Positions 10,226 through 32,987 of a stretch of 33,111 nt of DNA are shown here, one piece after another (positions within the stretch are counted from its first letter, which is position 1; the number at the start of each line of letters is the position of its first letter). Under the pieces are notes generated by a model, which searched no databases, was not told the DNA's origin, and saw only the letters and a program-made list of their open reading frames with translations. This DNA is from Anaerolineae bacterium (GTDB lineage: Bacteria > Chloroflexota > Anaerolineae > Aggregatilineales > Phototrophicaceae), in assembly GCA_013360465.1 (NCBI GenBank), contig JABWBO010000040.1, forward strand, positions 1-33,111, given 5' to 3'. A program made the position numbers and the translations under genes.

Positions 10226-11044
10226 ATGACGCTCAGCCTGGACGCCTATCTGGAACGGATCGGACACCGCGCGCCGGTGCGTCCCGATCTGGACACCCTG
10301 ACGGCGCTGCACCGCGCCCACCTGATCCATATCCCCTACGAGAACCTGGATATTCACCGGGGCGTCCCGCTCAGCCTCGACCTCCCCACCCTCTACCGCA
10401 AGATCGTCGCGGACCGGCGCGGCGGCTGGTGTTTCGAGATGAATGGACTGCTCGCCTGGGCGCTCCGCGACATCGGCTTTGATGTGACCCTCCTGGCTTC
10501 CAGCGTTGGACGGGGGGCGGCGGATGAGCCGTTCATCGGCGATCACCTGATCCTGCTGGTTCAACTGGATCGCCCCTATCTGGCGGATGTTGGCTTCGGC
10601 AACGGACTGTTCGAGCCGATCCCGCTGGCGGAAGGGCGCTATCGCCAGCGGAGTCTGGAGTTTGGTCTGCGGCTGGCGGGCGACCGCTGGTGGTTCGAGA
10701 ACCAGCCTGATGGCGGAGCGGGCTACGACTTCACCCTGGAGCCGCATACGCTCCCCGACTTCGCCGCCGAGTCGCACCGGCTGCAAACGTCCCCGGCGTC
10801 CGGCTTCGTGCGCGCCACCGTCTGCTTTCGTTTCACGCCGGAGGGTCTGCTGACGCTGCGGGGGGCGGTGTTTCGCCGCCTGACTGCCGCCGGGGAGCAG
10901 GAACAGATCATCGAGGATGCGGAGTCCTACGCGCGCATCCTCGATGAAGCCTTCGATCTGCGCTTCAGCAGCGGCGACGCCGCCGCCTTGTGGGAGAAAG
11001 TCTGGACGCGGCATCTGGCTTGGCGGAAGGCGCAGGGGACCTAG
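10226..11044 (+). CDS. nat: Arylamine N-acetyltransferase
   Basis: A 272-residue arylamine N-acetyltransferase, moving acetyl from acetyl-CoA to aromatic amines or hydrazines through an acetyl-cysteine intermediate. The catalytic triad sits at canonical positions: C69 in RGGWCFEMN, H107 in GDHLILLV and D121 in LADVGFG. Length is normal. ATG 10226 is supported by GGAGG (10213-10217) 8 bp upstream; the open frame extends earlier, but over repeat DNA. The stop is followed after 26 bp by the left boundary repeat of the R-M insertion. Before that insertion the next gene would have been the convergent GNAT gene now at 13810-14787. Confidence 0.96.
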   Translation: MTLSLDAYLERIGHRAPVRPDLDTLTALHRAHLIHIPYENLDIHRGVPLSLDLPTLYRKIVADRRGGWCFEMNGLLAWALRDIGFDVTLLASSVGRGAADEPFIGDHLILLVQLDRPYLADVGFGNGLFEPIPLAEGRYRQRSLEFGLRLAGDRWWFENQPDGGAGYDFTLEPHTLPDFAAESHRLQTSPASGFVRATVCFRFTPEGLLTLRGAVFRRLTAAGEQEQIIEDAESYARILDEAFDLRFSSGDAAALWEKVWTRHLAWRKAQGT

Positions 11045-11159: not shown

Positions 11160-12560
11160 TTGGTGCATCAGGGAATTCTCACTTTGAGCAAAAAGAGCGA
11201 TTTGCCGTTTGGCAGCGAATTCTCCCCATCGCAGATCGATCTCCCCGATATTCTCACGATCATCGAAGTGAGCGAGGGGAGTCCAAAGACGCTTGATAAG
11301 GCGATTCTCGACCGTTATTTCAGCCAGCATGGGCGTTCCGAAGGAGATGAATACAATCGCGGAAAACTCGCCTCCAATTGCAGGCTCGGTCTCATCGCCT
11401 ACCAGATCGTCGATAATCAGGCGCGTTTCACGGTGTTTGGGAAAACACTTCTGTCTATCAGGCATGACGAACAAGCGTTATATAGCACACTCGCCAAACA
11501 CATCCTGCTGAATCTGAATGGCATGAACCTGATTCAGTGCGTTCTGGATATGACCGCCGCTGGAGAAGAAGTCACCCTCACCACCCTGCGTCAGGGATTG
11601 GCTTTGCGGGGAGTTCACTATCCATCGGGGGGGAAACATCCCAGCATTATGCGATTGTGGCTCGCCAAAGCCGGCATATTCCTGGGCGGTAGATGGCAGA
11701 TTAACGAACTGCGACTGCGGGATGTACTGGGAATCGACCCTGACCAGTTTGAAATACTTGCCGATCTTAGCGCAGAGCAGAGGGCGTTCGTCCGCGCACT
11801 CGCCAATACCGGTGTTGAATCGCCGCAGCCGGCAAACGAAATTGCCCGTATGGCGTCCGCCATTTATGGTGTGACATTCCCCGAAAAGAGTCTTCCAAAA
11901 CGGGTCCTCGACGCCCTGATTTCTGCCGGTTACATCACTGCGGAAAAGACGACATCAGGTCGAGGCGCTAAGCCGTTCCTGGTCGCCCCAACCCCAAAAC
12001 TCGTCACCGAAATCATCGATCCACTTCTGGAACAGTTGATCAACCAGACCGATCCCAAACTGCGGCGGCTCCTCAAGAAACCGCTTGAGGGAATTTTGGC
12101 AGAGATACAATCGGAGGATCGCCATATTTCAGGTCTGGCGCTCGAAGCGCTCGCGTTCAAACTTATGAGGCTGCTAGACATGGAATACTTGGCAACCCGT
12201 CTGCGCGGATCTGCAACCGGCGGTGCTGAAGTCGATCTCATCTTCCATTCGGCGCGACTTGTCTATTCCCGATGGCAGATCCAATGCAAAAACACGGCGC
12301 GCGTGTCGCTTGACGATGTAGCAAAAGAGGTAGGACTAAGCCAGTTCCTGAAAACCAACGTCATCGTCATCGTGTCGACCGGCGAAATTGGCAGTGAAGC
12401 TCGCCGCTATGCGAACAGTATCATGATACAGACGAATCTGGCAGTCGTCATGCTGGATGGCACGGATATTGAACGTGTCACGGTTCAACCCACCAGTATC
12501 GTCGGCATTTTTGAGCGGGAAGCTCATGCAGCGATGCGACTCAAGCATCTGGAAATTTGA
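11160..12560 (+). CDS. Putative type II restriction endonuclease, PD-(D/E)XK (Mrr-like) fold
   Basis: About 466 residues. The C-terminal quarter has a PD-(D/E)XK nuclease pattern: E in LALEALAFKL, then GGAEVDLIF (D about 357), then WQIQCKNT (Q-x-K, K about 377), followed by an alternating strand VIVIVSTGEIG. This resembles Mrr-type catalytic domains. The N-terminal part is not recognised and may recognise DNA; segments such as LRQGLALRGVHYPSGGKH look helical. No ATG opens the frame. The candidates are TTG 11160, GTG 11163 and TTG 11184; 11184 has an AGGGA about 10 bp upstream. It ends 11 bp before the methyltransferase start, and the adjacent gene is the main reason to call it a restriction enzyme. 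Specificity unknown. Confidence 0.8.
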   Translation: MVHQGILTLSKKSDLPFGSEFSPSQIDLPDILTIIEVSEGSPKTLDKAILDRYFSQHGRSEGDEYNRGKLASNCRLGLIAYQIVDNQARFTVFGKTLLSIRHDEQALYSTLAKHILLNLNGMNLIQCVLDMTAAGEEVTLTTLRQGLALRGVHYPSGGKHPSIMRLWLAKAGIFLGGRWQINELRLRDVLGIDPDQFEILADLSAEQRAFVRALANTGVESPQPANEIARMASAIYGVTFPEKSLPKRVLDALISAGYITAEKTTSGRGAKPFLVAPTPKLVTEIIDPLLEQLINQTDPKLRRLLKKPLEGILAEIQSEDRHISGLALEALAFKLMRLLDMEYLATRLRGSATGGAEVDLIFHSARLVYSRWQIQCKNTARVSLDDVAKEVGLSQFLKTNVIVIVSTGEIGSEARRYANSIMIQTNLAVVMLDGTDIERVTVQPTSIVGIFEREAHAAMRLKHLEI

Positions 12561-12571
12561 CTGGAGACGCC

Positions 12572-13765
12572 ATGACCGAGCGTGTACCCGGGTTCACGAC
12601 GTTTTTTGCCACCGCCCTCGGTGAGATGTTGCACGGCAATTCACTTGAGGTGCTTTCTGGTCGGCCGGCTGAGTCAGTTGATCTCGTGGTGACCAGTCCG
12701 CCGTTCGGGCTTGTCCGCAAAAAGGAATACGGCAACGTTCACGCGGATGACTATTGCGAATGGTTCCAACCCTTTGCGGAGCAGTTTCACAGAATCCTGA
12801 AGACAACCGGCAGCCTGGTCATTGACATAGGCGGCGCGTGGAATGAGGGCGTACCGACGCGCCATCTCTATCACTTCAAGCTGTTGATCATGCTCTGCGA
12901 GGCGTATGGCTTTCATCTGGCGCAAGACTTCTATTGGTGGAATCCATCCAAGCTTCCCACGCCCGCCGAATGGGTCACCGTCCGGCGCATCAGGGTCAAG
13001 GATGCCATCAACACTATCTGGTGGCTGTCCAAAACCCCCTGGCCCAAGGCAAGCAACCGACGTGTCCTTCAGCCGTACAGCGCCAGCATGATGCAGCTGC
13101 TTGCAACCGGCTACAGAGCCAAGCGCCGTCCTTCAGGACACGATATCAGCGACAAATTCGCGAACAACAACGGCGCAGCGATTCCACCGAATCTGATCGC
13201 CATCCCGAACACTGAGAGCAACAGCTCCTATATCCGATACTGTCAGGAAAAAGGACTTCCAGTTCACCCCGCTCGCTACCCCTCTGAGATACCGGAATAC
13301 TTCATTCGCATGCTGACCGATCCAGGAGACATGGTGATCGATCCATTTGGGGGAAGCTGCGTGACAGGCGAAGTATCGGAGCGATTGAAGCGCCGCTGGC
13401 AATGCATTGAAATAACCGAGGATTATCTAAAAGGCGCTCTTGGCCGCTTCGAGCGTTACTCCGTTGAGAAACCTGCGCCGGCCCTTGAAAACGAGGCAAA
13501 CTACTATCGTATCGCGCGCCCAGGTCTGTTATGGAACGGTGAAACCGCTGAACCCTTGCCCGAAGATGGCGGAAAAAGACGCCGAAGTCAGACATCTTTG
13601 GAAGCGCCATCTCAAACGGCTGAAGCAGAACTTCGCGCGCGCGCGCCGGCAGATGCCCATGCGCCAGATGGTGTATCAGGTGACGCTCGCCTGAGTCAAA
13701 AAGAACTCCCGCTGGAAATGCCCGATCGTCCAGGAGAATCCGGCAGCTCGATCAAGAAGCGCTGA
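12572..13765 (+). CDS. Type II DNA methyltransferase, beta-class (N4-cytosine or N6-adenine)
   Basis: A 397-residue amino-methyltransferase that protects host DNA from the adjacent nuclease. Motif IV, TSPPF (about residue 41, in DLVVTSPPFG), comes first. Motif I follows late, in DPFGGSCVTGE (about 256), after DPGDMVI. This order, with the recognition region between, is the beta class. The S-P-P-F form is common in N4-cytosine enzymes, but N6-adenine is possible. ATG 12572 has GGAG (12563-12566) 5 bp upstream; a TTG at 12557 is in frame but overlaps the nuclease stop. The last ~75 residues are a charged, low-complexity tail (KKRRSQ-like, Ala/Pro-rich). Confidence 0.92.
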   Translation: MTERVPGFTTFFATALGEMLHGNSLEVLSGRPAESVDLVVTSPPFGLVRKKEYGNVHADDYCEWFQPFAEQFHRILKTTGSLVIDIGGAWNEGVPTRHLYHFKLLIMLCEAYGFHLAQDFYWWNPSKLPTPAEWVTVRRIRVKDAINTIWWLSKTPWPKASNRRVLQPYSASMMQLLATGYRAKRRPSGHDISDKFANNNGAAIPPNLIAIPNTESNSSYIRYCQEKGLPVHPARYPSEIPEYFIRMLTDPGDMVIDPFGGSCVTGEVSERLKRRWQCIEITEDYLKGALGRFERYSVEKPAPALENEANYYRIARPGLLWNGETAEPLPEDGGKRRRSQTSLEAPSQTAEAELRARAPADAHAPDGVSGDARLSQKELPLEMPDRPGESGSSIKKR

Positions 13766-26057: not shown

Positions 26058-27854
26058 TCAGCCCGGCGGGTCGTCGATGAACCAGGAGTCGTTGATGCTC
26101 GCGCCCATCTCGATCACCTGCCGATCCGGGAAGCGGTCGAGGATCGCCTGGCGCACCGCCGGGTCGGTCCCGTTGGAGTAATCCCAGGCGGCGACGATGG
26201 GGCTGTCGAGGTAAGGGCTGGTCGAAGCCATCAGCGCCCCATAAGCGCGCCAGCGGACATCTTCGCCGGTCACCAGCACCAGCACCGGGCGGTCGCCTTC
26301 ACGCCGGGCGTTCACCTGGTCGATCAGATCGCGGGTGATGCGGTTGTAGCCGCGCAGCAGCGCCACGCGCGGCAGGGCGTAGACGAACAGGACGACCAGC
26401 AGCAGGGCAGCGAGTCCTCCATAGAATGCCCGTCGGGCGACTGACGGGCGGATGGCGGACAGGCGGCTGATCAGGCTGCCGAGCGGCACGGCGCTGAGCA
26501 GCGCGGCGGCAGCCAGCCCTTCGAAGTAGTAGCGCGTGCTGTAGCGCTGCGAGCCGATCCAGTAGGTGAGCTGCAAGCCGATCACCAGGGCGGCGGTCGC
26601 CAGCAGAATCCACGTCCAGGCGGCGCGGCGTTCGCGCAGCGCCAGGACCGGCAGCAGCGTCCAGACCAGCGCGCCGATCACCCAAGCCCAGGCGAAATCG
26701 GGACTTGTCAGCAGCCGCCCGTCGTCGTAGTGCATGGCGAACAGCGCCGCCCCGGCGAGACCGATCAGCCACAGCGCGCCGAGCCACCAGCGGCGGCGCA
26801 GCCCGATCAGCACGCCGAACGGCAGCAGCGCCCAGCTGTAGCCGGGGATCGGATAGGTATCGCCGTCGTTGAGCAGATGCGCCGCCGCCTCGTCGGTCAG
26901 CGGCAGCGGCGACTGCCAGCCGAACAGGTCGGCGGCGGTCAGCGACAGGTCGAAGCGGGTGTGGCGGAAAGCGCGCTCCAGCGTGTGCCCGCTGCGTCCA
27001 CAGCCCGCGAAGCCCACGCAGTCGTACTCCCAGTAACGGGCATACAGGTTGGCGGTCGGGTCGCCGACGGCGGCGACGTTGTAGATCGGCACGATGGCGA
27101 AGACGGCGAGGGCGACGGCGGCGATAATCAGGTGGGGGACGAGCCAGGCGCGCAGCCCGCCGAGGGGAGCCGACCAGCGCCCCAGCAGCCATGCGCTCGC
27201 CCGCGCCATCAGGGGCAGAGCGAAGGCGGCGGCGGTCAGCGGTCGGGCTGCCGCCAGCAAGCCGAGCGCCAGCCCGACGATCAGGGCGAGGACGAACCGG
27301 CGCTCGCCCCGCAGGCGCATCAGGCTCTGTTCCAGCCGCAGATAGGCGAGGAACGCCAGCGCGCCGCAGCAGAGCGCGGCGGTGTGTCCCATCAGGGTGG
27401 CGTTGAGGAGCAGCGCCATCGGCGAGAACGCCGTCAGCGCCGCCGCGATCAAGCCCGTATCGCGCCCGAACAGATCGCTCCCCAGGCGGTAGACCAGGGC
27501 GACGGTCAGCGCCGCCAGCAGCGCGTTGACCATCCATTCCTGCCCGGCGATCACCCCGCCTGCCAGCAGCAGGGGCCAGCCCGGCGTGTACTTGCCGAAG
27601 CGCACATCGTCGTGATAGAGCAGGAAGGGCAGCCAGTAGGCGCGGCGGACGGGCGGCGATTCGACCACCAGGTCGCCGCGCGCCAGGGTGCGCGCCTGAA
27701 AGAGGTAGGCGTATTCATCTTCGAGGTGCGGCAGGCGCTCGAAGACCGTCCGGCTGAGGATGGCGCTCATGGCGAAGGCGAACAGGCACAGCCCCAGCGC
27801 GGCGAGGGCGTGCGGCGCGAAGCGAGTGCGGCGCGTCATGATGCTGGGCGTCAC
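26058..27854 (-). CDS. GT-C-type membrane glycosyltransferase (GT39/ArnT-like)
   Basis: A 598-residue polytopic membrane protein with about 11-13 hydrophobic segments. After the first helix comes LPHLEDEYAYLFQARTLARG, where the acidic pair in the first outer loop is the hallmark of GT-C enzymes (PMT/ArnT) that use lipid-linked sugars. WLPFLLYHDDVRFGKYTPGW fits the same outer loop region. A soluble C-terminal part (from about LRGYNRITRDLIDQVN) ends the protein. The likely role is sugar transfer to an envelope lipid, polymer or protein. GTG 27854 overlaps the stop of the upstream VOC gene (GTGA), so translation is coupled. ATG 27839 is an alternative start. Donor and acceptor unknown. Confidence 0.85.
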   Translation of the reverse strand: MTPSIMTRRTRFAPHALAALGLCLFAFAMSAILSRTVFERLPHLEDEYAYLFQARTLARGDLVVESPPVRRAYWLPFLLYHDDVRFGKYTPGWPLLLAGGVIAGQEWMVNALLAALTVALVYRLGSDLFGRDTGLIAAALTAFSPMALLLNATLMGHTAALCCGALAFLAYLRLEQSLMRLRGERRFVLALIVGLALGLLAAARPLTAAAFALPLMARASAWLLGRWSAPLGGLRAWLVPHLIIAAVALAVFAIVPIYNVAAVGDPTANLYARYWEYDCVGFAGCGRSGHTLERAFRHTRFDLSLTAADLFGWQSPLPLTDEAAAHLLNDGDTYPIPGYSWALLPFGVLIGLRRRWWLGALWLIGLAGAALFAMHYDDGRLLTSPDFAWAWVIGALVWTLLPVLALRERRAAWTWILLATAALVIGLQLTYWIGSQRYSTRYYFEGLAAAALLSAVPLGSLISRLSAIRPSVARRAFYGGLAALLLVVLFVYALPRVALLRGYNRITRDLIDQVNARREGDRPVLVLVTGEDVRWRAYGALMASTSPYLDSPIVAAWDYSNGTDPAVRQAILDRFPDRQVIEMGASINDSWFIDDPPG

Positions 27855-28795
27855 GACGCGGACGCGAAGCTCTCCAGCAGTTCCAGCGAAACGCCCAGCG
27901 CGGCGTCGCTGTCCAGGTAGGTGTACATGCCGGAAAGATCGCCGTACAAGCCCTGCTGCACCACCGGCAGCCCGCGCCCGGCGAGATATGCCGCGACGCG
28001 GGCGGTATCCTTGACCGGGAAGGCGATGTGATGCCCCATCTGCCCGCGCGCGTTCAGGAAGTCGCGCCAGACGCTCGGCTGCGGGTCGGGTTCGATCAGC
28101 TCCAGCTGCATCTGCCCGAAGTTGAAGAAGGCGAGTTTGGCGGTGGCGTCGCAGGGCGCGCCGTGATAGGTGGTCTTGACCACGTCGTAGCCGCTGGTGA
28201 TGATCAGGTTCGGGTCGGGCAGCCCGAAGACTTCGGCGACGCGCCGCTTGACCGCTGCGATGTCGTGGGTCATGACCGCCACCTGATTCACGTGCGCCGT
28301 GCCGATGCCGCTCCCGGCGAAGGGCGGCGGTTCAGCGCGACGCCCGCCGAAGCGTTCCATCACCTCGACGACGATGCCCATGTCTCTGTCGGTATCCAGG
28401 TAGGTGTAGCGCCCATCCCTGCTGCTGAACAATCCCTGCTGCACGACGCTGTAACCGTAGCGCGCGAAGTCGGCGACGGCGGCGTCGGTATCGGCGACCT
28501 CGAAGGCGATGTGGTGAATGCCTTCGCCGCGCTCCGCCAGGAAATCCGCCCACACACTCTGAGCGTCGAGGGGCTGAAGGAATTCGAACTGCACACGCCC
28601 CAGCTCAAAGACCGCCCCGCGCACGCCCGCAGCGATAGGCTCCCCTTTGTAGACGGCGCGCGGCTCGCCCTGGGCGCTGAAGAAATGGGGGCTGGGCAGA
28701 TCAAGGACGGCGGCGAATCGGGCGGCGGCGGCTTCGACATCGCGCACCACCACGCCGATCTGGACAATTTCGGTCGGATTCAACTGTACGGGCAT
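27851..28795 (-). CDS. Two-domain VOC-family protein (methylmalonyl-CoA epimerase / glyoxalase-like)
   Basis: A 314-residue protein of two similar VOC halves. The first begins IVQIGVVVRDVEAAAARFAA; the second begins HVNQVAVMTHDIAAVKRRVA. Each half holds the phrase G-x-H-H-I-A-F (GIHHIAFEV, GHHIAFPV), YTYLDSD/YTYLDTD and a terminal Glu (VEVMERF, LELLESF), typical of epimerase or glyoxalase metal sites. The halves arose by internal duplication. GAGGAG lies about 8 bp before ATG 28795. It is divergent from the solute-binding gene, sharing the palindromic promoter at 28851-28884, and is followed by the coupled glycosyltransferase gene. Substrate unknown. Confidence 0.9.
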   Translation of the reverse strand: MPVQLNPTEIVQIGVVVRDVEAAAARFAAVLDLPSPHFFSAQGEPRAVYKGEPIAAGVRGAVFELGRVQFEFLQPLDAQSVWADFLAERGEGIHHIAFEVADTDAAVADFARYGYSVVQQGLFSSRDGRYTYLDTDRDMGIVVEVMERFGGRRAEPPPFAGSGIGTAHVNQVAVMTHDIAAVKRRVAEVFGLPDPNLIITSGYDVVKTTYHGAPCDATAKLAFFNFGQMQLELIEPDPQPSVWRDFLNARGQMGHHIAFPVKDTARVAAYLAGRGLPVVQQGLYGDLSGMYTYLDSDAALGVSLELLESFASAS

Positions 28796-28850
28796 GTCGC
28801 CGGCTCCTCACTGGGGTCTGGGTCTGTTTGCGGCATTCAGGCTGCCTGCG

Positions 28851-28884
28851 TCATTATAACCCCGCACGGCTTAGGTTATAATGA
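28851..28884. promoter_or_regulatory. Symmetric divergent promoter / operator
   Basis: TCATTATAACC (28851-28861) is the perfect reverse complement of GGTTATAATGA (28874-28884), with a 12-bp spacer. The arms place TATAAT at 28877-28882 on the plus strand and at 28853-28858 on the minus strand, giving two back-to-back -10 elements at proper distance from ATG 28913 and ATG 28795. Each arm falls in the -35 area of the opposite promoter, so one symmetric protein could control both genes. No regulator gene is adjacent. Confidence 0.65.
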
Positions 28885-28912
28885 CGCGGCGGCATACGCG
28901 GAGAGAACAGAG

Positions 28913-30226
28913 ATGCGCTTCATCTGGATATGGGTGGTAGGCGGGTTGATCGGCTGTGCGCTGGCGGGATGCGCGGGCGCGGCGCCGACCCCGGCGGCGG
29001 AGATGGCGCTGCAGGCGCTGCCGTCGGCGTCGCCCTCTCCTTCAGCGCCGCTCACCCCGATCGCCTCTCCTGCGCCGCTGCCGACCGAGACAGGTCCGCG
29101 CACCTTGATGATCTGGATGCCCGATGTCCTCGCCCCGACCGATAACGCCGATGCCGAGGTGCAGCGCGCCGTGTGGATCACCGCCTTCGAAACCCTGGAG
29201 GGCGATCTCACGGTGACGATGCGGCTGAAGCGCGCCGCCGACGTGGGCGGCATCTTCCAGACGCTCCGCAGCGCCAGCCTGGTCGCCCCGACCGCGCTGC
29301 CCGATCTCGCGCTGCTGCGCCGCGTCGATCTGCTGGCGGCGGTCGCCCTCGGCTTGGTACGCCCGCTCGACCCAACAGGCGTCACCGCCCTGATCCAGGA
29401 CATGTACCCGTCGGAGATCGCGCTCGGCTCGGTCGAAGGCGATCTCTACGCGCTGCCCTTCACCGTCGATGTCGCGCACCTGGCGCTGAACCCGGAGGCG
29501 GCGCTGACCGACTCCGACGCCTGGACCTTCGACGCGGTGCTGAGCCGCCGGGATACGCTGCTCTTCCCCGCCGGGCGCGCCGGGATCGCCAACGAGACCT
29601 TCCTGGCACAGTACCGCGCCGCCGCCGCCGGGGCGACGACGCAGGATGAGGGCGTGCCGGTCGACGCGGCGGCGCTGGAAGCCGTCTTCAGCTTCTACCA
29701 GTCGGCGCGGACGGCGGAGATCATCCCGGCGAGCGTGCTGGACTACACAGCGGCGAACGACTACATCGATCAGGTCATCACCGGGACCGCCGCCGGGGTG
29801 ATCTCATCGAGCAGCTTCCTGACCCTGCGCGATTCCGGCACGGCGCTCGCCTTTGCCCCCCTGCCCACCCGCGACGGCGAGCCGGCGGCGCTGATCGACG
29901 GCTGGATGTGGGTGATCACCACCGGCGACGCCGCCCGTCAAGCGGATGCGCTGCGCTTCCTGAGCTGGGTCTTCGACGTGGATCGCCATGCCGATTACAC
30001 CCGCGCCCTGCATATGCTGCCGACCGGCAGGGCGACCCTGCGCCAGAGCGCTGACCCGGACTATGCCCAGTTTGCCGAGGCGCTGATTGACCGGGCGACT
30101 CTGCCGCTCTCCGACTCCGCCGGAGGCGTGGCGGGGCGCGCCATGCAGGCGGCGCTGATTGCCGTGCTGCGCGGTGAACGCACGGCGGAAGCTGCCGCCC
30201 AGGATGTGATCGAGCAGGCAGGATAG
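28913..30226 (+). CDS. Extracellular solute-binding lipoprotein (ABC-type sugar-binding-like)
   Basis: About 437 residues. ATG 28913 (GGAGAG upstream) starts a lipoprotein signal, MRFIWIWVVGGLIG, with lipobox LAGC, so the mature protein should be lipid-anchored at Cys about 20. A Pro/Ser/Ala-rich linker follows. The body resembles type-1 extracellular solute-binding proteins: early LALLRRVDLLAAVALGLVRP, the EGDLYALPFTVDVAHLALNP phrase, the late LIDGWMWVITTG segment and FLSWVFDVDRHADYT. The frame is open far upstream, but that is antisense to the VOC gene. No permease genes follow; instead the hydantoinase-B-type gene begins 3 bp after the stop. Ligand unknown. Confidence 0.85.
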   Translation: MRFIWIWVVGGLIGCALAGCAGAAPTPAAEMALQALPSASPSPSAPLTPIASPAPLPTETGPRTLMIWMPDVLAPTDNADAEVQRAVWITAFETLEGDLTVTMRLKRAADVGGIFQTLRSASLVAPTALPDLALLRRVDLLAAVALGLVRPLDPTGVTALIQDMYPSEIALGSVEGDLYALPFTVDVAHLALNPEAALTDSDAWTFDAVLSRRDTLLFPAGRAGIANETFLAQYRAAAAGATTQDEGVPVDAAALEAVFSFYQSARTAEIIPASVLDYTAANDYIDQVITGTAAGVISSSSFLTLRDSGTALAFAPLPTRDGEPAALIDGWMWVITTGDAARQADALRFLSWVFDVDRHADYTRALHMLPTGRATLRQSADPDYAQFAEALIDRATLPLSDSAGGVAGRAMQAALIAVLRGERTAEAAAQDVIEQAG

Positions 30227-30229
30227 CGC

Positions 30230-31792
30230 ATGACCGTCGATGCCATCAGCCTGGAAGTGTTCAAGAACCTCTTCGTCTCTGCCGCCGAAGAGATGGGTGT
30301 GGCGCTGCGGCGCGCGGCGTTCAGCCCCAACATCCGCGAGCGGCTGGACTTCAGCTGCGCCGTCTTCGACGCCGCCGGCGCGATGATCGCCCAGGCGGCG
30401 CATATCCCGGTACACCTGGGCAGTATGCCCGCCAGCGTCCGCGCCGCGCTGGACCGCTTCCCCGACTTCGCGCCCGGCGATGTGATCATCGTCAACGATC
30501 CGTATCACGGCGGCACGCATCTGCCGGATGTAACCCTGGTCTCCGGCATCTTCGAAGGCGGCGCGCCGCTCTTCTTCGTCGCCAGCCGGGCGCACCATGC
30601 CGACGTGGGCGGCATGTCGCCGGGGTCGCTGCCCCTCAGCACCGAGCTGTATCAGGAAGGCGTAATTATCCCGCCGATCCGCCTGTTCGAGGGCGGGCGG
30701 CGGCATGACGGCGTGCTGGCGCTGATCACCGCCAACAGCCGCGCGCCCCACGAGCGCATCGGCGACCTGGAGGCGCAGATCGCGGCGCACCGCGTCGGCG
30801 AAGCGCGGCTGCGCGGGCTGATCGCCGCGCATGGCGTGGCGCGGCTGAGTGAACATGCCGCCGCCCTGATCGCCTATACCCGGCGCATGACCGAAGCGGC
30901 GATTGCCGCCCTGCCGGACGGCGTCTACACCTTCGAAGATGCGCTGGAAGGCGACGGGCAGGCGTCGTTCCGCATCCCCATCCGTGCGGCGGTGATCGTG
31001 CAGGGATCACGCCTGACGGTCGATTTCAGCGGCACGGCGGCGCAGGTGGCGGGCAACGTCAACGCCGTCACCCCCATCGCCGTCTCTGCCGTCGGCTACT
31101 GCGTCCGCCTGCTGAGCGGCGAAGACCTACCGGTCAACGCCGGCTGCTTCGACCCGGTGACGGTGATCGCGCCGGAGGGCTGCCTGCTCAACCCGCGCTT
31201 CCCGGCGGCGGTAGCGGTCGGCAATACCGAGACGGGGCAGCGGGTGGTCGATGTCGTGCTGGGCGCGCTGGCGCAGGCGCTCCCCGAATGTCTGCCGGCG
31301 GCGGCGCAGGGGTCGATGAACAACATCACCATCGGCGCGATGGTGGGCGGCGTACAGCGCGTTTACTACGAGACCATCGGCGGCGGGCACGGCGCCTCGG
31401 CAGACGGCGCGGGCTTGAGCGGGCGGCACAGCCACATGACCAACACCCTGAACACGCCGGTCGAGGCGCTGGAGGCGGCGTACCCGATCCGTGTGTGGGC
31501 GTATGCCCTGCGCGACGATTCCGGCGGCGCGGGGCGGCATCGCGGCGGCGACGGCATCCGACGGGAGTACGAACTGACCGCGCCGGGCGTGGTGACGCTC
31601 AACTGCGAGCGGCGCGAGATCGCCCCTTATGGCTCGGCGGGCGGAGCGGACGGCGCGATGGGGGTCAACACCGTCATTCGGGCGGGCGAAGCGGAGCGCG
31701 TCCCGGCGAAGTGGACGGGGCGGCTGGAGGCGGGCGACCGGCTGGTGATCGAGACCCCCGGCGGCGGCGGGTGGGGCGGTCCCATCTGCTGA
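30230..31792 (+). CDS. Hydantoinase B / oxoprolinase-type subunit (HyuB-like)
   Basis: A 520-residue HyuB-family protein, whose ATP-dependent relatives hydrolyse hydantoins, 5-oxoproline, or carboxylate acetone-like ketones. The family opening VDAISLEVFKNLFVSAAEEM is followed by RAAFSPNIRERLDFSCAVFD, then IPVHLGSMPASV, PGDVIIVNDPYHGGTHLPD and SRAHHADVGGMSPGS, where the His and Asp residues may bind metal in the family. The ending WTGRLEAGDRLVIETPGGGGWG is typical. The usual HyuA partner gene is not in the window; the next gene is alanine dehydrogenase. It is probably in one operon with the solute-binding gene (3-bp gap). A lone HyuB is unusual. Confidence 0.9.
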   Translation: MTVDAISLEVFKNLFVSAAEEMGVALRRAAFSPNIRERLDFSCAVFDAAGAMIAQAAHIPVHLGSMPASVRAALDRFPDFAPGDVIIVNDPYHGGTHLPDVTLVSGIFEGGAPLFFVASRAHHADVGGMSPGSLPLSTELYQEGVIIPPIRLFEGGRRHDGVLALITANSRAPHERIGDLEAQIAAHRVGEARLRGLIAAHGVARLSEHAAALIAYTRRMTEAAIAALPDGVYTFEDALEGDGQASFRIPIRAAVIVQGSRLTVDFSGTAAQVAGNVNAVTPIAVSAVGYCVRLLSGEDLPVNAGCFDPVTVIAPEGCLLNPRFPAAVAVGNTETGQRVVDVVLGALAQALPECLPAAAQGSMNNITIGAMVGGVQRVYYETIGGGHGASADGAGLSGRHSHMTNTLNTPVEALEAAYPIRVWAYALRDDSGGAGRHRGGDGIRREYELTAPGVVTLNCERREIAPYGSAGGADGAMGVNTVIRAGEAERVPAKWTGRLEAGDRLVIETPGGGGWGGPIC

Positions 31793-31822
31793 GTCTCTAT
31801 CTCTACACTTTGTACGAAAATA

Positions 31823-31851
31823 CTGGCAGTTTTTCCATCACTCTGTATAAA
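31823..31851 (+). promoter_or_regulatory. Promoter of the alanine dehydrogenase gene
   Basis: CTGGCA (31823-31828) and TATAAA (31846-31851) are exactly 17 bp apart, in an AT-rich 100-bp gap upstream of ATG 31893. Four of six bases match the -35 consensus. Confidence 0.6.
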
Positions 31852-31892
31852 ATAGGCGCCATCGTGCGGGCTTGAAGAAAAAAGGTCTTTTC

Positions 31893-32987
31893 ATGAATAT
31901 CGGCATCCCCAAGGAAATCAAGGATAACGAATACCGTGTGGCGCTGCCGCCGAGCGGCGTCCGCGAGCTGACCCGGCGTGGACATCAGGTCACCGTCGAA
32001 AAAGATGCCGGGTTGGGCAGCGGTTTCACTGACAACGAATACGTCATGGCAGGCGCGCGCATCGCCCACACCGCCGAAGAGACCTGGGGGCGCAGCGATC
32101 TGGCGATCAAGGTCAAGGAGCCGCTGCCCAGCGAATTCGCCTATCTGCGCGAAGACCTGACCCTGTTCACTTACCTGCACCTCGCCGCCAGCGAAGAGCT
32201 GACGCGCGGACTGCTCGACAGCGGCGTCACGGCGCTGGCGTATGAGACGGTGCAGATGCCCGACGGACACCTGCCGCTGCTCCAGCCGATGAGCGAAGTC
32301 GCCGGGCGCATGGCGACGCAGATCGCGGCGCAGTATTTGCAGAAATCGGAAGGCGGACGCGGCATCCTGCTCGGCGGCGTGCCGGGTGTGCGCCCTGCCC
32401 ACGTGGTGATCATCGGCGCGGGCACGGTCGGCACACACGCGGCAGAGATCGCCGTCGGCATGGGCGCACAGGTGACGCTGCTGGACATCAGCCTGGAACG
32501 GCTGCGCTACCTCTCTGACGTGATGCACGGGCGCATCGTGACCGTCTATTCGACCGAGGTCAACGTCGCCGAGGCGCTGCGCACCGCCGACGCCGTGATC
32601 GGCGCGGTGCTGGTCACCGGGGCGCGCGCCCCGCGCCTGGTCACCCGCGACATGCTCAAGCTGATGCCGCGTAACAGCGTGATCGTCGATGTGGCGGTGG
32701 ATCAGGGCGGCTGCGTCGAGACGACTCGCCCGACCACCCACAGCAACCCGACCTATTATGTCGATGACGTGCTGCACTACGGCGTGGCGAACATGCCCGG
32801 CGCGGTTCCGCGCAGTTCCAGCCTGGCGCTCGCCAACGCCACGCTGCGCTATGTGATCAAGCTGGCGTCCGGGAACCTGGACGGGGTGCTGGCGGAGGAC
32901 CCGATCCTGGCGACCGGCTTGAACGTGCGCGCCGGAAAGATCACCCACCCGGTGGTGGCGCGGACCTTCGGCATGCCGGTGGGGTAA
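31893..32987 (+). CDS. ald: Alanine dehydrogenase
   Basis: A 364-residue NAD-dependent alanine dehydrogenase, interconverting L-alanine and pyruvate plus ammonia. The N-terminal MNIGIPKEIKDNEYRVALPP is typical. Catalytic K75 (KVKEP) and H96 (FTYLHLAAS) are at the positions known in other alanine dehydrogenases. The NAD fold has GAGTVGTHAAEIA, followed by the acidic LLDIS. The C-terminal NMPGAVPRSSSLALANATL is also characteristic. ATG 31893 has AAAGG about 9 bp upstream; a TTG at 31872 is in frame but less likely. It has its own promoter. 32988-33111 shows no gene I can support. Confidence 0.96.
   Translation: MNIGIPKEIKDNEYRVALPPSGVRELTRRGHQVTVEKDAGLGSGFTDNEYVMAGARIAHTAEETWGRSDLAIKVKEPLPSEFAYLREDLTLFTYLHLAASEELTRGLLDSGVTALAYETVQMPDGHLPLLQPMSEVAGRMATQIAAQYLQKSEGGRGILLGGVPGVRPAHVVIIGAGTVGTHAAEIAVGMGAQVTLLDISLERLRYLSDVMHGRIVTVYSTEVNVAEALRTADAVIGAVLVTGARAPRLVTRDMLKLMPRNSVIVDVAVDQGGCVETTRPTTHSNPTYYVDDVLHYGVANMPGAVPRSSSLALANATLRYVIKLASGNLDGVLAEDPILATGLNVRAGKITHPVVARTFGMPVG

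Follow-up and report, generated by a model that had tools for sequence, protein, structure and literature searches.

How is transcription arranged between two divergent gene units that begin on either side of a single perfect inverted repeat? The question is posed by a contig of an Anaerolineae bacterium (JABWBO010000040.1, assembly GCA_013360465.1), which was analyzed over its whole length of 33,111 nucleotides and is referred to here as the window. The leftward unit is headed by a two-domain VOC protein of the glyoxalase superfamily (314 amino acids; positions 27851 to 28795, minus strand; Pfam Glyoxalase_4, 2.2e-33) with its start codon at 28795; against the methylmalonyl-CoA epimerase model, this protein scored 76.6 bits, under the cut-off of 114.95. 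The end of its gene is overlapped by 4 nt by the gene for a 598-amino-acid protein (26058 to 27854, minus strand), which an earlier note on this DNA had named a glycosyltransferase. For that name there is one sub-threshold match to archaeal STT3 (22.4 bits; cut-off, 450) and no Pfam match, and the protein is possibly, on this weak indication, a glycosyltransferase of the GT-C type. The rightward unit is headed by an extracellular solute-binding protein (SBP) with a lipoprotein-like N terminus (28913 to 30226, plus strand; Pfam SBP_bac_8, 4.9e-13; lipobox identified by eye). Its start codon at 28913 agrees with homologues and with the lipoprotein signal; the frame itself stays open for about 885 nt upstream of this likely start, antisense to the VOC gene (28028 to 30226). 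A hydantoinase B/oxoprolinase subunit (HyuB; 30230 to 31792, plus strand; Pfam Hydantoinase_B, 2.5e-201) follows 3 nt past the SBP gene. In the stretch from 28913 to 32987, the order is SBP, directly HyuB, and then alanine dehydrogenase, and a transport permease was absent among the products scanned there. Pfam searches of 25 open reading frames of the window, which is the whole contig, gave no DNA-binding regulator family; no match was obtained for four of these frames, including a probably spurious antisense one. Elsewhere in the window (11160 to 13765), a protein with an Mrr-type restriction endonuclease domain is immediately followed by a DNA methylase (N6_N4_Mtase), which resembles a restriction-modification pair.

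The inverted repeat between the two start codons has 14 bp per arm, with arms that are 100% complementary, and a spacer of 12 nt. The left arm, GCGTCATTATAACC, occupies positions 28848 to 28861, the spacer 28862 to 28873, and the right arm, GGTTATAATGACGC, 28874 to 28887. Each arm carries one outward-reading TATAAT, a candidate -10 element at 28877 to 28882 on the plus strand for the SBP/HyuB promoter and at 28853 to 28858 on the minus strand for the VOC promoter. An inverted repeat with a perfect TATAAT on each strand was what the earlier note had described, and the coordinates on both strands confirm it; the position and the 11-bp arm given there were right in substance but slightly short. 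The TATAAT on the SBP side lies 36 nt ahead of its start codon and that on the VOC side 63 nt ahead of its own. With 18 bp between the two hexamers, each falls at the -35 contact position of the other promoter; each arm spans the other promoter's possible -35 positions for spacers of 15 to 19, as the earlier note had claimed. Transcription start sites were predicted at 7 nt beyond each hexamer, that is, at about 28889 and about 28846, roughly 43 bp apart as computed from the -10 positions. These predicted starts are just beyond the arms, and thus the repeat would lie outside both transcripts. The explanation that we consider the best, and hold with good confidence, is a divergent pair of housekeeping-type promoters with interlocked cores, and the 40-base mirror-image stretch probably serves as a genuine, compact control region.

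This explanation depends on the hexamers being promoter elements, and the upstream regions of the same genome, counted with the window pair left out, speak to that point. In an 833-kb sample, the 120 nt ahead of each gene were searched for hexamers containing four or more A/T, and TATAAT led the count: 41 copies in 414 upstream regions, whereas its reverse complement had 18 and its reversal 2. Half of the copies within 200 nt (25 of 50) begin 37 to 59 nt before the start codon. This first rank among A/T-rich upstream hexamers makes both window hexamers credible -10 elements. As in overlapping divergent promoter pairs, both strands therefore carry a genome-typical -10 element, each plausibly spaced from the divergent gene that it faces, and the proposal of two promoters at divergent genes stands, with the gene order right. 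No -35 match above chance was found on either strand; the best matches were 3/6 to TTGACA, which is typical of shuffled sequence. Among 40 other upstream TATAAT sites, three had a 5/6 match, versus 0.8 in shuffles, and thus a -35 element may contribute at some promoters of the genome; the window pair shows none.

The repeat itself is beyond chance by several counts. The motif TTATAATG has two copies in the window versus 0.08 expected, both at the promoter site, and the 5.93-Mb genome has a single copy of the core CATTATAA-N8-20-TTATAATG. With loops of 3 to 30 allowed, 20 perfect repeats with an arm of at least 14 were observed in the 833-kb sample, whereas five Markov-1 copies of the sample gave means of 0.2 arm-14 and 0.2 arm-15 repeats. 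Seventeen of the 20 are intergenic by the gene calls, with neighbors oriented +/-, +/+, or -/-; none of them has divergent neighbors, which leaves the promoter site as the sole long repeat in that position. Of these 17, 14 have a loop no longer than 8 and are probably terminators. If the repeat at the promoter site were likewise an RNA element or a terminator, its hairpin would act in transcripts. The strand does fold well as single-stranded DNA (-20.3 kcal/mol; z, -5.66), but both flanking genes are directed away from it, a T tract is absent after either arm, and the predicted starts lie just beyond both arms, so that the repeat would act as DNA and not as RNA. Moreover, the sole Rfam match in 28500 to 29200 up to an E value of 1 was a sub-threshold microRNA model elsewhere in that stretch (E, 0.15). 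Gene order, predicted starts, and Rfam together led us to reject the hairpin, to which we give almost no credence. The two remaining long repeats are inside called genes and equal the promoter site in arm (14 bp) and spacer (12 nt), and thus length by itself is no proof of function. One of the two, at 10908 to 10947 of the window, lies inside a gene of the N-acetyltransferase family and lacks TATAAT. The genic repeats of equal size favor a reading in which selection acts on the two hexamers only and the longer symmetry arose by coincidence or was left by an inverted duplication at the site; against it, 14-bp arms are rare in random sequence. We regard this reading as plausible, although short of probable.

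If interlocked -10 elements are an ordinary arrangement, mirror pairs should occur at other loci, and they do. In 15 genomes of the genus, ATTATA-gap(10-30)-TATAAT was found 35 times, versus 10 times for a reversed-pattern control; in 98 genomes of the family, the counts were 312 and 205, with the pattern ahead in 64 genomes and the control ahead in 12. The reversed control hexamer is rarer, and therefore the excess in part reflects the abundance of TATAAT and is no proof alone. The position of the pairs is stronger evidence for a class than their excess. Apart from the window site and its orthologue, 33 pairs were found in the genus, which are not independent, since in at least three instances two of them appear to be orthologous to each other; 21 are between divergent genes and none between convergent genes, in a setting in which 96 of 409 gaps in the sample of the window genome are divergent. 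The other 12 are inside called genes (6), between genes in +/+ (4) or -/- (1) orientation, or without a left gene near a contig end (1). A sister genus (g13) has a mirror TATAAT pair between divergent acyl-CoA dehydrogenase and VOC genes in 11 of 17 genomes (loci L139, L140, L141, L145, L147, and L340 to L345, each at about position 1500); the remaining six genomes had no exact match at this locus. The gap is exactly 14 bp in all 11, in a search that allowed 10 to 30, and 5 of 16 gap-14 pairs examined are at other loci. Across the 11 sequences, TGnTATAAT is invariant on the dehydrogenase side, the invariance of the hexamers being imposed by the search, whereas drift is seen in the flanks and over most of the spacer. 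That only the search-fixed hexamers and one TG are kept there again speaks for coincidence or duplication as the source of the longer symmetry at the window site. The mirror-pair architecture looks real and ordinary, recurring across the family, and the window site is an ordinary member of this class with unusual symmetry.

The locus itself was compared with its relatives. In a search of 61 genomes for both proteins, with the stronger VOC matches inspected individually, VOC and SBP genes were seen to be adjacent only in the window genome (G000) and in G006. The earlier note had named conservation of both arms as a check, and in G006, the sole relative in which the locus was found, none of the 28 arm bases is changed (0/14 in either arm) and one of the 12 spacer bases is. 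By comparison, 13 of 51 bases of the minus-strand leader and 16 of 70 aligned bases (local alignment) of the gap between the HyuB and alanine dehydrogenase genes are changed, giving 1/40 for the repeat versus 29/121 for these two regions (Fisher P = 0.0018); the VOC and SBP coding DNA differs by about 5 to 6%. The plus-strand leader is nearly as conserved (2/25 changed), and thus the conservation is not arm specific. When the arm bases outside the hexamers were taken separately, 0 of 16 were changed versus 13 of 51 in the minus leader (Fisher P = 0.03), which argues against coincidence or duplication, although two species, compared by sequence, are insufficient to tell whether the arms are under selection or the region is locally slow to change. 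Eight other loci with VOC homologues (L077 to L083 and L165) differ in their surroundings, which counts against the promoter-pair explanation: the upstream sequence, up to 300 nt from the match (189 nt at L081), contained no TATAAT, and no SBP gene was found beside the homologue within the available stretch. No VOC protein nearer than 53% appeared in the contig scan, in which very near records may be absent; the best named match was from an Anaerolineae bacterium.

The arms match for eight bases past the hexamer (14 bp), whereas those of the 33 other pairs of the genus are 6 to 11 bp long and those of 19 mirror pairs elsewhere in the family 6 to 9 bp. We considered the promoter consensus as the source of this match. 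At 40 TATAAT sites of this genome, G stands two bases before the hexamer in 20 and C or G just after it in 33, but the flanks hold at most 0.36 bits per position, and these preferences are too weak to account for eight extra matched bases. The earlier note had treated the arms as nothing but promoters, whereas the consensus leaves the symmetry past the hexamers unexplained. The symmetry exceeds the needs of promoter elements, as that of an operator would. The repeat might then be mainly an operator, with a dimeric or tetrameric regulator on both arms, over both -10 elements, repressing or coordinating both units; the promoters would also be present, and the symmetry would serve the regulator. 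The length of the match, the weak flank preferences, by which it is not forced, and the unchanged arms in G006 all favor this proposal. Further sites or an adjacent regulator gene, however, were not found in 154 genomes of the order, 400 of the phylum, and the 25 open reading frames of the window. The palindrome with up to three mismatches was present in 2 of the 154 genomes, once each, without a second site, and CATTATAACC-N6-30-GGTTATAATG in 1 of the 400, a sample without G006; the scanned frames, which belong to a window that ends with the contig, lack a DNA-binding regulator family. An operator therefore remains a tentative proposal, about which we are doubtful. A family of operators was also considered and rejected. 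Single arms with up to two mismatches gave 23 genomic matches, including two at the promoter site, versus 12 for the reversed pattern; six of these matches were inspected, and no common theme was seen. In the searches of the order and the phylum, whole palindromes were limited to G000 and G006.

A more ambitious proposal, which we consider rather unlikely, joins promoter and operator: the 40-bp palindrome would be a symmetric operator-promoter, with a dedicated regulator on both arms and the polymerase arbitrating direction, and the family would have, as a selected class, interlocked mirror -10 pairs whose spacing is fixed. A selected regulatory class is suggested because the acyl-CoA dehydrogenase/VOC pair recurs in 11 of 17 sister-genus genomes. 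If the proposal were true, a single symmetrical site would determine how much the two metabolic units yield in total and how that output is divided between them.

Overlapping divergent promoters are an already known kind of arrangement; they were reportedly described by Beck and Warren in 1988 as back-to-back promoters of divergent bacterial operons. The window site shares with them promoters on opposite strands, overlapping polymerase footprints (as predicted), and a place between divergent genes; it differs in the unusually perfect mirror symmetry over both cores and in that no regulator gene was found in the contig. In Escherichia coli, an operator palindrome of about 40 bp covers the two divergent promoters of bioA and bioB. 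The window site is similar, with a palindrome of about 40 bp over two predicted divergent promoters, but no biotin gene was found among the proteins scanned and no regulator in the window, which makes the likeness a lead only. The bioA/bioB promoter is named as bidirectional in one paper (PMC12825309). Bidirectional promoters, as characterized by Warman and Grainger, have start sites 7 to 25 bp apart and a shared or overlapping -10 element (PMC12825309, PMC10268837). The window site is like them in the symmetry of -10 elements on opposite strands, in predicted divergent RNAs, and in that binding one way would block the other. Unlike theirs, its hexamers are 18 bp apart and its predicted starts about 43 bp; neither a shared nor an overlapping -10 element is present, and the site therefore falls outside the bidirectional definition. 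Separate divergent promoters are not classed as bidirectional by these authors (PMC12825309). A search of one literature library for "anaerolineae" together with "bidirectional promoter" found no paper.

As an interlocked pair, the site would work as follows. Each strand would use its own TATAAT, and each hexamer would fall at the -35 contact of the other promoter. Polymerase bound in either direction would, by geometry, cover the other promoter, and the two units would take turns at one site. At modest activity, there would be little effect on output, and strong activation one way would reduce the other direction. The predicted footprints overlap by geometry alone, given hexamers 18 bp apart and a typical polymerase footprint, and to that extent the earlier proposal that the two polymerases cannot bind together follows. 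The further proposal of an either/or switch does not. For exclusion to produce a switch, the strength of both promoters must suffice for competition, and therefore a switch is not implied. If the competition were strong, only one unit would be expressed at a time, and the geometry, with each arm in the other promoter's -35 zone, is what one would expect. But neither window promoter has a -35 match above chance (3/6 each). To our knowledge, there is no functional opposition between the VOC enzyme and the SBP/HyuB unit, which also counts against a switch. In the E. coli work, five of five bidirectional promoters showed no competition in vitro at basal activity; competition emerged once one direction was strongly activated, so that competing polymerases can make activation in one direction repressive for the other, a point in favor of a switch (PMC12825309). 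Direct clashes at the binding site leave separate divergent promoters unaffected according to the same paper, which does not say whether interlocked ones are included (PMC12825309). We consider a true either/or switch very unlikely.

The competition tests between divergent promoters in the papers cited are all from E. coli. The readily recognized -10 element of this family provides natural cases of fixed spacing, 18 bp in the window and 14 bp in 11 genomes of the sister genus, in which it could be tested whether spacing, and through it polymerase interference, is under selection. A second mirror TATAAT pair, with a 21-bp gap, is present between divergent genes in the window genome (G000:C158:12347-12379; L313) and in G006 (G006:C69:712-744; L324), and its 33-bp core is identical in both sister species.
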